Assembly (NCBI RefSeq): GCF_914271545.1
Contig: NZ_CAJZAH010000001.1
Coordinates: 1,178,001-1,242,000, forward strand
Origin: Cupriavidus respiraculi
GTDB lineage: Bacteria; Pseudomonadota; Gammaproteobacteria; Burkholderiales; Burkholderiaceae
Length of the DNA stretch: 64,000 bases
Direction: 5' to 3'
How positions within the stretch are numbered: the first letter of the stretch is position 1; every line of letters starts with the position of its first letter. Below are positions 51,558 to 61,586 of this stretch, piece by piece. The position numbers and the translations under genes were made by a program. The notes under the pieces were generated by a model. That model saw only the letters and a list, made by a program, of their open reading frames with translations, was not told where the DNA came from and ran no database searches.

Positions 51558-51570
51558 GTATACTATATTC
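51558..51570 (-). promoter_or_regulatory. Second-regulon operator at the amidase promoter
   Basis: GTATACTATATTC, identical (inverted) to the site at 58915 and one base from the site at 56883. On the minus strand a promoter TTGTCA, 17 bases, TAGTAT can be drawn whose -10 lies inside the operator. The amidase start is 68 bases away. Confidence 0.7.
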
Positions 51571-51761
51571 ACTTCACAGAAGTGACAAGGCGACATTTGG
51601 CGGATGGCGGGCCGACCGCGAATGAGCAAGCGCCGTGCCGTGGGCTCGGGCAGAAAGGAAATGCGTGGGGAGGCGTATGGACGGGGCGTAGATCACTGCG
51701 CCCGCGGGCGTGCCGGCAAGACGGCCGGCACCGGAAGGGGGTTTTCTTGAGGCCGCGCGCG

Positions 51762-51941
51762 TCAGGTGGCGCGGGCGCCCGGACGTTTGCGGCCGAACAG
51801 TGCGCCGAAGAAGCGGCAGATATCTTCGTGGCGCAGCGGAATCAGGGGAGTAGCGTGGCGCACCGCATCGCGCGCCGCATAGTGCTTCAGCAGTTGGACA
51901 CCGACCGGCACATCGAAATACTGGGCGTCGGGTTGAGTCAT
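51762..51941 (-). CDS. Small hypothetical protein downstream of the GntR gene
   Basis: 59 residues from the ATG at 51941 (a GTG at 51950 adds three). It begins MTQPDAQYFDVPVGVQLLKH and ends in a basic tail (GRKRPGARAT), with HEDICRFFGALFG as a likely helix. A GTATAC within a GCACA / TGTGC dyad lies 35 bases upstream, so it may belong to the regulon. No family is recognised; it could be spurious. Confidence 0.45.
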   Translation of the reverse strand: MTQPDAQYFDVPVGVQLLKHYAARDAVRHATPLIPLRHEDICRFFGALFGRKRPGARAT

Positions 51942-51970
51942 GGCAAACACCTATTGAATATCGAAACGGT

Positions 51971-51994
51971 GCACAGTATACAAAATTATTGTGC
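51971..51994. promoter_or_regulatory. Weak second-regulon operator
   Basis: GTATAC (51976-51981) inside the dyad GCACA / TGTGC (51971-51975, 51990-51994), upstream of the small gene. Only the half-site matches the strong operators. Confidence 0.4.
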
Positions 51995-52079
51995 AACGCG
52001 CCATACGCGTGCATACACGCGCTTCAATGCGGTGCGCGGCGCCCAGGCCGCGCCGCCATGACATCAATGCCGGCCGTTA

Positions 52080-52787
52080 TCAGGCCGCACGGGTCTGGTC
52101 GGTGACGGGGAGGTCGGCGGCCTTCGCCGCGCTGTAGACATGGCGCGCCGCGAGCAGCGCGGCAAGATCGGCGTCGCCGGCAATCACCGCCTGCAGGATC
52201 TGCGCATGCTCGTCCCAGTTCTGGCGGGCCCGCACGGCATTGGCCGGGCCGAACAGCGCGGCGGTGCGCTCGCGCAGAGAACGCATCATTTCCTGCAGCA
52301 CGCTGTTGGCGGCGATATTGCCGAGCACTTCGTGGAAGCGGTTATTGAGCTCGATCAGCTCGTCGGCCCTGCCCTGCGCCGCCGCGTCCATCCCCTCCCG
52401 CAGCACGGCCTCCAGTTCGGCGATCAGCGCCGGATCGCGGCGTTGCGCCGCGAGCTTGGCGTTCAGCCCTTCGAGCGTGGCACGCACCTCGACCATCTCG
52501 CGGGCGACGTGGGGGGACAGCGTGGCCACCGAAGCGCCGCGGCGCGGCTCGATCAGGACCAGGCCCTCGGCGGCCAGCGCGCGCAGCGCTTCGCGCACGG
52601 GAATGCGTGACACGCCCAGTTCGATGGAGAGCTTGTTCTCCACCAGCCGTTCGCCCGGCGCATATTGCCCCTTGAGGATGCGTTCGCGCAGCTTGTCGGT
52701 GACAAGGGCGAACAACGGCGAGTGGCTGGCGCCCAGGCTCACGACATCCGGTTCGGGCTGGGCACGCGAGGAGGGGTTGGCTGGCAT
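52080..52787 (-). CDS. GntR-family regulator, FCD subfamily (second regulon)
   Basis: 235 residues from the ATG at 52787. The winged helix spans about 24-90 (FALVTDKLRERILKGQYAPG, LSIELGVSRIPVREALRALA, EGLVLIEPRRGASVATLSP). The FCD domain has probable metal/ligand residues in NNRFHEVLGNI, DEHAQILQAV and LAARHVYSA. A GTATAC half-site within a GGGCGC / GCGCCC dyad lies about 100 bases upstream. It lies at the centre of genes that share GTATACTATATTC-like operators, and is the likely repressor of the amidase, diiron enzyme, TSUP and permease promoters. The ligand is not known. Confidence 0.9.
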   Translation of the reverse strand: MPANPSSRAQPEPDVVSLGASHSPLFALVTDKLRERILKGQYAPGERLVENKLSIELGVSRIPVREALRALAAEGLVLIEPRRGASVATLSPHVAREMVEVRATLEGLNAKLAAQRRDPALIAELEAVLREGMDAAAQGRADELIELNNRFHEVLGNIAANSVLQEMMRSLRERTAALFGPANAVRARQNWDEHAQILQAVIAGDADLAALLAARHVYSAAKAADLPVTDQTRAA

Positions 52788-60522: not shown

Positions 60523-60602
60523 ACCTGTGGATTGCCCGGCCGCTGGCCCCATCGCCCGCGGTCCGGACGGATTGATCAAGCGTTGTTAGCAGGATGAGCC
60601 TT

Positions 60603-60908
60603 ATGCCAAGAGTTCTTTTTCACAAGCACGGCCAGGTCTTCGAGGACGAGGTCAAGGACAACACGAATCTGGTGGTACGCGCCGGCATCAAGCAGTTTCC
60701 CTATCCCAACCTGCGCTACGAATGCGGCATGGGCAAATGCTCCAAGTGCGCGTGCCGCGTGCTGGCGGGCGCCGAACACCTGCCGGCGCCGAACTGGAAG
60801 GAAAAGAAGCAGCTCGGCGAGCGGCTCGACCAGGGCTATCGCCTCGCCTGCCAGCTGTGGATCTCGCACGATATCGAGCTGGCGCAGGACGAGGAAATCG
60901 CCGCATAG
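60603..60908 (+). CDS. 2Fe-2S ferredoxin
   Basis: 101 residues from the ATG at 60603, with AGGA eight bases upstream; the ATG at 60594 has no room for a ribosome site. Cluster ligands are Cys41, Cys46, Cys49 and Cys83 (CGMGKCSKC ... LAC), the plant-type CX4CX2C...C pattern. It is cytoplasmic and carries single electrons. It lies after the permease gene and, with the ferredoxin at 61260, probably links the reductase at 52982 to the diiron enzyme. Confidence 0.87.
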   Translation: MPRVLFHKHGQVFEDEVKDNTNLVVRAGIKQFPYPNLRYECGMGKCSKCACRVLAGAEHLPAPNWKEKKQLGERLDQGYRLACQLWISHDIELAQDEEIAA

Positions 60909-60922
60909 GCGCGGGGCATGCC

Positions 60923-61216
60923 ATGTACGTGATCCTCACCAGCCGTCCCGGCCAGTTCCGCACCGAGCCGGTCGATGGCATGAACGAAATCGAAGCCTAC
61001 GACTACGGCTTTTACGGCAGGACCATCGCGCATTTCGTCATCGCGGAAGTGGACCGCCCGGTCAAGGTGCGCGTGGTCGAAGACACGCCCGCCGCCATCG
61101 TCAACCACGTGCCCTCGAAATTTCTCGAGCACTTCGACACGCTGGACGCTGCGCGCGCCGAACTGCGCAACCTTGCGCGCTTCGGCAGCATGGACATCAC
61201 CCTTACCCGCGTATGA
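60923..61216 (+). CDS. Small conserved-looking protein of unknown function between two ferredoxins
   Basis: 97 residues, 14 bases after the first ferredoxin gene and 43 before the second. It begins MYVILTSRPGQFRTEPVDGM and has a compact mixed alpha/beta look: EAYDYGFYGRTIAHFVIAEV, VKVRVVEDTPAAIVNHVPSK, FDTLDAARAELRNLARF and the end strand SMDITLTRV. There are no Cys residues, signal peptide or membrane segments. No family is recognised. Its position suggests an accessory to the ferredoxins or the diiron enzyme, such as an assembly or effector protein. Confidence 0.7.
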   Translation: MYVILTSRPGQFRTEPVDGMNEIEAYDYGFYGRTIAHFVIAEVDRPVKVRVVEDTPAAIVNHVPSKFLEHFDTLDAARAELRNLARFGSMDITLTRV

Positions 61217-61259
61217 GGCCAGCCGACACGGCGCCTCGAACGGACCCTTTGCATCGACC

Positions 61260-61586
61260 ATGATCCAGATCACCTTTCTCACCAATGACAACAAGGTCGT
61301 CTCCGCACCGCCGAACAGCAATCTGCTGCGGGTTTCGCTGCGGGAAAAAGGCGGCATCCCCTTCAAATGCGGTGGCGGCCTGTGTGGCACATGCCGTTGC
61401 CGCATCGAGAGCGGACGCGAGCACACGGACGACGTGAAGGCCAAGGAAAGAAAGCACCTGACCGAGGCTGACATCGCCGACGGTTATCGCATGGCGTGCC
61501 AGACCTTCGTGCATGGGGACATCAGTGTGTCGTGGCAGAGCAGCAGGACGGCACCCGCGGTTGCCGAGGAGGAGCGGCAGGCCTGA
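61260..61586 (+). CDS. 2Fe-2S ferredoxin (second)
   Basis: 108 residues from the ATG at 61260. Cluster ligands are Cys37, Cys42, Cys45 and Cys80 (CGGGLCGTC ... MAC). It differs clearly from the ferredoxin at 60603, so the pair are not recent duplicates. The Glu/Ala-rich C-terminal tail is probably flexible. It is the last gene of the permease operon, and the MarR-like gene converges on it with a 13-base gap. Confidence 0.87.
   Translation: MIQITFLTNDNKVVSAPPNSNLLRVSLREKGGIPFKCGGGLCGTCRCRIESGREHTDDVKAKERKHLTEADIADGYRMACQTFVHGDISVSWQSSRTAPAVAEEERQA

Follow-up and report, generated by a model that had tools for sequence, protein, structure and literature searches.

The window analysed here is a stretch of 64,000 nucleotides from Cupriavidus respiraculi (positions 1,178,001 to 1,242,000 of contig NZ_CAJZAH010000001.1, RefSeq assembly GCF_914271545.1), and the subject is a gene cluster in it that surrounds a heme-oxygenase-like diiron protein (HDO). 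Gene families were assigned by Pfam and NCBIfam, and the genes were found where a first-pass annotation, made from the letters alone, had placed them and in the families it had named. The minus strand, from 58709 to 52080, carries in this order a TSUP (TauE/SafE) transporter of 253 amino acids (57948..58709; PF01925, 68 bits), a homologue of 304 amino acids from the ornithine-cyclodeaminase/mu-crystallin family (OCD; 56953..57867; PF02423, 155 bits) resembling NAD(P) imine reductases, the HDO of 243 amino acids (56082..56813; PF14518, 133 bits), an aldehyde dehydrogenase of 486 amino acids (ALDH; 54522..55982; PF00171, 541 bits), an HbpS/GlcG (DUF336)-like protein of 159 amino acids (54014..54493; PF03928, 111.5 bits against a cut-off of 25), a BenC-like reductase of 331 amino acids with [2Fe-2S], FAD and NAD domains (52982..53977; the BenC model gave 191 bits and its cut-off of 430 was not reached) and a GntR/FCD regulator of 235 amino acids (52080..52787; PF00392 and PF07729). 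Further along the same strand (51489 to 48615) lie an amidase of the amidase-signature family (49945..51489; PF01425, 283 bits; NF004816, 688 bits, above the cut-off of 503) and an MFS transporter (48615..49931), nearest to aromatic acid/H+ symporters at a score under the cut-off.

The divergent plus-strand unit (58987 to 61586) consists of a permease of 511 amino acids (58987..60522), whose membrane role was judged by eye from hydrophobicity, a [2Fe-2S] ferredoxin of 104 amino acids (FDX1; 60594..60908; PF00111), an orphan protein of 97 amino acids (U97; 60923..61216) and a second [2Fe-2S] ferredoxin of 108 amino acids (FDX2; 61260..61586; PF00111). The gaps between HDO, ALDH, HbpS and reductase genes are 99, 28 and 36 bases, those between permease, FDX1, U97 and FDX2 are 71, 14 and 43 bases, and amidase and MFS are separated by 13 bases.

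A predicted 13-base operator stands in front of these units. As had been annotated in the first pass, exact matches are found upstream of the amidase (GTATACTATATTC, 51558..51570, plus strand), upstream of the HDO (GTATACTATATAC, 56883..56895, no strand assigned) and upstream of the permease-ferredoxin unit (GTATACTATATTC, 58915..58927, minus strand), and these are the sole three exact matches in the whole 5.59-Mb genome. The weaker operator proposed upstream of TSUP (58740..58752, minus strand) holds as well, having two mismatches and the same site in Cupriavidus relatives. When up to three mismatches were allowed, the window gave nine matches where 1.14 were expected; they fall in seven places, two of which were counted on both strands. 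The genome at up to two mismatches gave 12 sites against 10 for the backwards pattern, so that weak sites do not rise above the control; single weak sites therefore mean little there, and the regulon claim is carried by the comparative evidence.

Two further sites had been proposed. The one at 51976 is weak, with three mismatches, but related sites with two mismatches lie near the homologous small open reading frame in several Cupriavidus loci (L018, L021, L028, L029). In the window this frame is a possible gene for a small protein of 59 amino acids behind the weak site (51762..51941, minus strand); it belongs to no Pfam or NCBIfam family, and a similar frame occurs in 12 loci including the window (cluster 21). 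The other, at 52895, was meant to indicate autoregulation of the GntR gene and is not supported, as no match was found there at three mismatches and the 170 bases upstream of the GntR gene hold no site in any of 72 cases. An operator-like site with two mismatches was also seen at 5922-5934, distant from the cluster.

For comparison, 464 HDO relatives were collected in a scan of named genomes, and the best-scoring ones gave 79 loci with 87-96% HDO identity, from Cupriavidus, Paraburkholderia, Achromobacter, Bordetella, Candidimonas, Bradyrhizobium, Azospirillum, Belnapia and other genera. Fully flanked loci are the 66 with full 10-kb flanks, the remaining 13 of the 79 being left out of those totals. 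Totals of cluster genes were obtained by tblastn after removing matches under half of the query, ferredoxin matches below 55% identity and genes truncated where a contig stops. Identity medians omit matches covering less than 70% of the query, and operator counts omit genes that start too close to the edge of their locus. Genes in the relatives were predicted by a GC-frame script that can miss or mis-start genes, and the counts of gene order, small reading frames and other sites rest on these predictions. Two of the loci contain runs of N.

In the 79 loci (1.52 Mb), 269 operator sites were found at up to two mismatches, against one for the reversed pattern, and 244 of them stand in front of one of 13 cluster genes at a distance of 5-170 bases. 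A site precedes 76 of 78 HDO genes, 60 of 70 permease genes, 25 of 26 amidase genes and 32 of 44 TSUP genes; it is less frequent for ALDH (24/74), FDX1 (16/74) and OCD (10/34). No site was found within 170 bases upstream of MFS (27 genes), HbpS (77), reductase (64), GntR (72), U97 (74) or FDX2 (74); these are inner genes or the regulator. Where the units are reordered, in Achromobacter, Paraburkholderia and Bradyrhizobium, the genes that now head them carry their own sites. Two loci, L070, which is cut at a contig end, and L090, show no site; at two mismatches the Belnapia locus shows none. The other 25 sites include some near a porin gene in eight loci and some near a gene for an SsuA/NMT1-like ABC-transporter binding protein in two, one of them also near a chemoreceptor gene; these point to the uptake of an external compound or nutrient. 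Some of the 25 also lie near a small conserved open reading frame. Judged from sequence comparison, the regulon appears real, its scattered units sharing an operator at their starts and having the regulator beside the genes. We infer from co-occurrence that the GntR/FCD protein is what acts at the predicted operators.

The HDO gives a model of heme-oxygenase type with seven helices (AlphaFold; predicted local distance difference score, pLDDT, 87; predicted template modelling score, pTM, 0.84). The top PDB match by Foldseek was CADD (1rcw/8va9; 1rcw with E 5.7e-9 and template modelling scores of 0.77/0.87), followed by PqqC, UndA, HrmI, FlcD and BesC, and a sequence profile of the HDO relatives picks up CADD, PqqC, BesC and UndA. 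The two iron-site motifs pointed out in the first pass, E-x6-H and H-x3-D-x2-H, correspond to E85-x6-H92 and H179-x3-D183-x2-H186; with E148, which had not been named, they make a complete set of three histidines and three carboxylates (E85, H92, E148, H179, D183, H186). This matches the ligand set given in the consulted sections of the superfamily review (PMC13108848). Mutation of the ligands in close homologues would have counted against an HDO, and the pattern is kept in 79/79 relatives. All six residues are present also in homologues of 45% and 33% identity, the former with an insertion between E85 and H92. By its predicted fold and its six metal ligands, the protein is a member of the heme-oxygenase-like diiron family.

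The constancy of the surrounding genes differs strongly. The HbpS-like gene is present in 66/66 fully flanked loci, FDX1, U97 and FDX2 each in 64/66, ALDH and GntR each in 63/66, permease in 62/66 and a full-length reductase in 54/66, while TSUP (39/66), OCD (29/66), amidase (24/66) and MFS (24/66) are less frequent. Both fully flanked loci without the ferredoxin-U97 cassette hold U97 at another place in their genomes. Among 74 complete cases, FDX1, U97 and FDX2 are contiguous and in the same order in 73, and the next gene found after HDO is FDX1 or U97 in 33/79 loci. The conserved core is thus HbpS together with the ferredoxin-U97 cassette, both near-constant; ALDH, GntR and permease also vary little, and amidase, OCD homologue and TSUP are optional. 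The HDO-headed operon, the single regulon and the dedicated electron chain, all parts of the first-pass annotation, are conserved in alpha- and betaproteobacterial loci alike.

A four-cysteine motif is seen in both window ferredoxins and in the reductase, and the four cysteines of FDX1 and FDX2 are kept in 74/74 relatives. U97 has no family in Pfam or NCBIfam. Its AlphaFold model (pLDDT 93) is a predicted beta-sheet with one helix and has no PDB match at E<=0.001; no kinship to any effector protein was found in sequence, nor any clear one in fold. U97 has traits wanted in a coupling protein, being small, co-inherited with HDO and having no cofactor motif that could be seen. In an evenly drawn sample of 398 genomes of the phylum, it matches the same four genomes that carry an HDO of at least 88% identity. 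A fifth, marginal match (E 3.3e-4, 47 residues) was judged to be chance, since it lies inside a flavoprotein-like protein and in the frame of that protein. In L086 (7705-9033), from a metagenome assembly, the FDX2 frame continues, uninterrupted by a stop codon, into an alpha/beta-hydrolase domain and may encode a fusion of ferredoxin and esterase.

The HDO gene is patchily distributed in the evenly drawn samples. It was found in 7/300 genomes of the order at 83-100% identity (own genome included), the next match being at 33%; the phylum sample had, besides the four genomes mentioned, one HDO at 47%; and in the order of G569 it occurs in 1/199 genomes, which is G569 itself. One copy of the cluster lies on a Caballeronia plasmid, and ISNCY transposase genes adjoin the cluster. 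Cupriavidus basilensis KF708 (L035) apparently has two HDO copies close together in opposite orientation. In ten alphaproteobacterial loci, the median identity to the window is 88% for HDO, 77% for HbpS, 76% for ALDH (nine loci), 73% for FDX2, 71% for permease (nine loci), 70% for FDX1, 57% for reductase (two loci), 55% for U97 and 51% for GntR. HDO would accordingly be the slowest-changing component, a result that is favoured by choosing the loci on HDO score.

A sister clade was found in the order of G434, where 32/76 genomes have a relative of the G434 HDO at E<=1e-30. Three of the 32 are only 44-46% identical to the G434 protein, and two of these (L116, L117) are of the main type with FDX1-U97-FDX2. 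In six sister loci (L100, L113-L115, L118, L119) HDO, HbpS and GntR adjoin; HDO identity to the window is 44-45% in five and 42% in L118, and L119 has two HDO genes in tandem. These loci are without FDX1-U97-FDX2. In 5/6 a Rieske [2Fe-2S] protein is divergently encoded beside HDO (assigned by Pfam in two, by BLAST clustering in the others), and genes for acyl-CoA-ligase-like (AMP-binding) proteins and short-chain dehydrogenases lie nearby. L114 has a TauE-type transporter and an alpha/beta hydrolase near HDO. The 13-base consensus had no match at two mismatches in L100, the one sister locus scanned with it, and 11 of the 14 GTATAC hexamers in the six loci lie within 260 bases upstream of an HDO. 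These sequences suggest that HDO-HbpS-GntR with a GTATAC operator is the older unit and that its [2Fe-2S] partner differs by clade.

As for the accessory enzymes, the best NCBIfam model for ALDH is alpha-ketoglutaric semialdehyde dehydrogenase (545 bits; the cut-off of 770 was not reached). The PDB relatives of the HbpS-like protein are the OrfY-type protein 2a2l, NahX, the C-domain of PduO and EfgA, a formaldehyde sensor that uses K, S and D for formaldehyde according to the part of its description consulted (PMC8153426). In an alignment read by eye, these K, S and D appear aligned with residues of the HbpS-like protein. A search of open-licence PMC full text gave nothing on NahX among the matches listed. 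The closest solved chain to the OCD homologue is 3hdj (408 bits), named only 'probable ornithine cyclodeaminase', and all 13 NCBIfam models listed for it score under their cut-offs, including ornithine cyclodeaminase PRK07589 (113 of 350 bits). The permease has no Pfam or NCBIfam family and no PDB relative at E<=10.

The first-pass annotation had proposed a pathway in which an amide is hydrolysed, the product cleaved by the diiron enzyme and the resulting aldehyde oxidised. Complete copies of the amidase occur in 26/79 loci and of the OCD homologue in 34/79, so that neither is an obligatory step. MFS follows the amidase in 25/26 relatives. Other enzymes occupy comparable places in some loci: an esterase-like gene follows FDX2 in 9/74, a gamma-glutamyltransferase gene follows permease in 3/70, and in four the gene after FDX2 encodes an amino-acid or imine dehydrogenase from one of three families, namely OCD in L041 and L064, an aspartate dehydrogenase in L069 (381 bits, cut-off 253) and a saccharopine-dehydrogenase-like protein in L068. 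We infer that different enzymes were recruited in these few loci for like steps, namely to free the substrate from a conjugate and to interconvert imine and amine. Such swaps fit the general idea of the proposed pathway without proving it. In L068 (2458-8680, minus strand), the genes on the same strand after FDX1-U97-FDX2 encode the saccharopine-dehydrogenase-like protein, a second ALDH and proteins like 2-oxoacid:ferredoxin oxidoreductases, which suggests amino-acid or 2-oxoacid metabolism there.

The window also has a gene at 47279-48277 (minus strand) for what looks by eye like a methyltransferase. It adjoins a gene (45967-47262, minus strand) whose product looks by eye like a cytochrome P450 and may be of the fatty-acid peroxygenase type.

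We consider it probable that the cluster is a GntR/FCD-controlled catabolic system around a multicomponent heme-oxygenase-like diiron oxygenase and that the compound degraded is nitrogenous. By analogy with MboAB and with multicomponent diiron oxygenases, electrons would pass from NADH through the reductase and the ferredoxin(s) to the diiron site, and U97 would couple the ferredoxins to HDO or gate oxygen activation. The substrate, a small organic compound that is probably nitrogenous, would enter by the permease or come from amides, esters or gamma-glutamyl conjugates split by lineage-specific hydrolases, and HDO would oxygenate or cleave it. For the product, an aldehyde is the simplest guess, because ALDH adjoins and BesC, another HDO, releases formaldehyde. 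ALDH would oxidise the aldehyde, HbpS may bind or sense it, the OCD-type enzyme may interconvert imine and amine, and the regulator would leave its operators once the substrate or an intermediate appears. A bolder proposal, which we put forward tentatively and hold to be possible rather than probable, is that this is the first heme-oxygenase-like diiron oxygenase working as a true multicomponent system, in which the reductase, two ferredoxins and an effector-like U97 gate and drive HDO much as happens in soluble methane monooxygenase, whose fold is unrelated, and that HDO starts the breakdown of a nutrient along an undescribed pathway.

Several points weigh against the catabolic multicomponent reading. 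Of the fully flanked loci, 3/66 have no ALDH near HDO and 12/66 no full-length reductase (in L015 a partial match was removed by the length rule or a broken frame), so that a generic reductase may serve. The nitrogenous substrate is suggested by genes that are optional. The 79 loci are the best of 464, and their high HDO identity is therefore in part selection. As the sister clade is without FDX1-U97-FDX2, the HDO family is not tied to the cassette. Genes for TerC and DHA2-type exporters near some loci could also fit export or resistance, and a biosynthetic or detoxifying role may apply.

Three other explanations were weighed. HDO could make p-aminobenzoate in a self-sacrificing reaction, or could be some other enzyme of CADD/PqqC type that produces a cofactor, with the other genes mere neighbours. 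CADD is indeed the nearest solved relative by sequence and by fold, and the CADD family model TIGR04305 gives 98.3 bits, but that is far under its cut-off of 200, as are the 56.2 bits for PqqC (TIGR02111) under the cut-off of 240. In an alignment counted by hand, Tyr27 and Lys152 of CADD are replaced by Ser29 and Gln158, and the equivalent of Tyr41 of NePabS by Trp45; the former two are the sacrificial Tyr and Lys and the latter a second essential Tyr, as given in the consulted portion of PMC11965152. The assignment as p-aminobenzoate synthase was rejected on these replacements. A regulon with permease and ALDH is also unfit for the synthesis of folate or PQQ, and we regard this explanation as highly improbable. 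HDO could instead act as an N-oxygenase or desaturase in the making or detoxification of a secondary metabolite. The review, in the sections consulted, treats the superfamily mainly via natural-product biosynthesis (PMC13108848); DHA2-type exporters follow OCD in 4/34 loci, and an AMP-binding ligase lies near the sister loci. Against this, no nonribosomal peptide synthetase, polyketide synthase or amino-acid ligase was seen among the selected main-clade neighbour clusters scanned, and the regulon holds uptake-type genes, several hydrolases and ALDH, which makes this role rather unlikely.

The remaining explanation is that HDO works alone with generic reductants, and that FDX1-U97-FDX2 serves another enzyme or that U97 helps to assemble iron-sulfur or diiron centres. 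The HDOs studied to date require no protein effector, according to the same sections of the review (PMC13108848), the cassette is a separate operator-headed unit in some loci, and the sister clade does without it. It is nevertheless unlikely, as U97 tracks HDO in the 398-genome sample, FDX1 or U97 comes next after HDO in the 33 loci counted above, the Rieske protein stands divergent from HDO in 5/6 sister loci, and no other recurring oxygenase was recognised among the clusters examined, not every one of which was given a family.

Should the reading as a catabolic multicomponent oxygenase be true, the regulon, which is shared by soil bacteria and occurs in Cupriavidus, Paraburkholderia, Achromobacter, Bordetella, Bradyrhizobium, Azospirillum and Belnapia, would provide the HDO superfamily with a role in catabolism, an electron chain of defined composition and an effector that can be tested. 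An assignment for 3hdj, and for a further DUF336 protein, would become easier as well. No description of the cluster was found in open-licence PMC full text among the matches listed, as judged from titles and the starts of abstracts.

Soluble methane monooxygenase and the toluene monooxygenases combine a diiron oxygenase with a [2Fe-2S] reductase and a small partner protein, all encoded in an operon for catabolism. The likeness of the window system to these bacterial multicomponent monooxygenases lies in this way of working; their hydroxylase is ferritin-like whereas the window oxygenase is heme-oxygenase-like, and U97 has no detected kinship to their effectors. The role of the effector in bacterial multicomponent diiron monooxygenases is also covered in the consulted sections of the 2026 review (PMC13108848), which counts about a dozen validated HDOs, mainly in natural-product and cofactor synthesis. 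BesC, UndA, HrmI and AetD, which act on amino acids or fatty acids, belong to the same superfamily, and UndA, HrmI and BesC appeared in the fold search. Their sequence similarity to the window HDO is low, and no multi-ferredoxin cassette is described for them in those sections; a term search of the review gave no occurrence of the word 'ferredoxin' (PMC13108848). BesC breaks a C-C bond and frees formaldehyde and ammonia, as stated in the same sections (PMC13108848).

The HbpS-like protein is a DUF336 family member, as are EfgA, HbpS, NahX and the C-domain of PduO. With CADD and NePabS, the nearest solved relatives, the window HDO has the fold and the ligands of three histidines and three carboxylates in common, but it is without the sacrificial Tyr and Lys and is linked to ferredoxins, reductase, ALDH and transporters. 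MboA and MboB, the HDO acetylenase of mangotoxin and its flavin/Fe2S2 NAD(P)H reductase, are in the part of the report consulted maybe the first characterized pair of an HDO with a dedicated redox partner (PMC13185094). The window system is like this pair, by description of MboA, in joining an HDO to a dedicated NAD(P)H reductase of the flavin and Fe2S2 kind, and differs from it in adding two ferredoxins, U97, HbpS and a catabolic-looking regulon.

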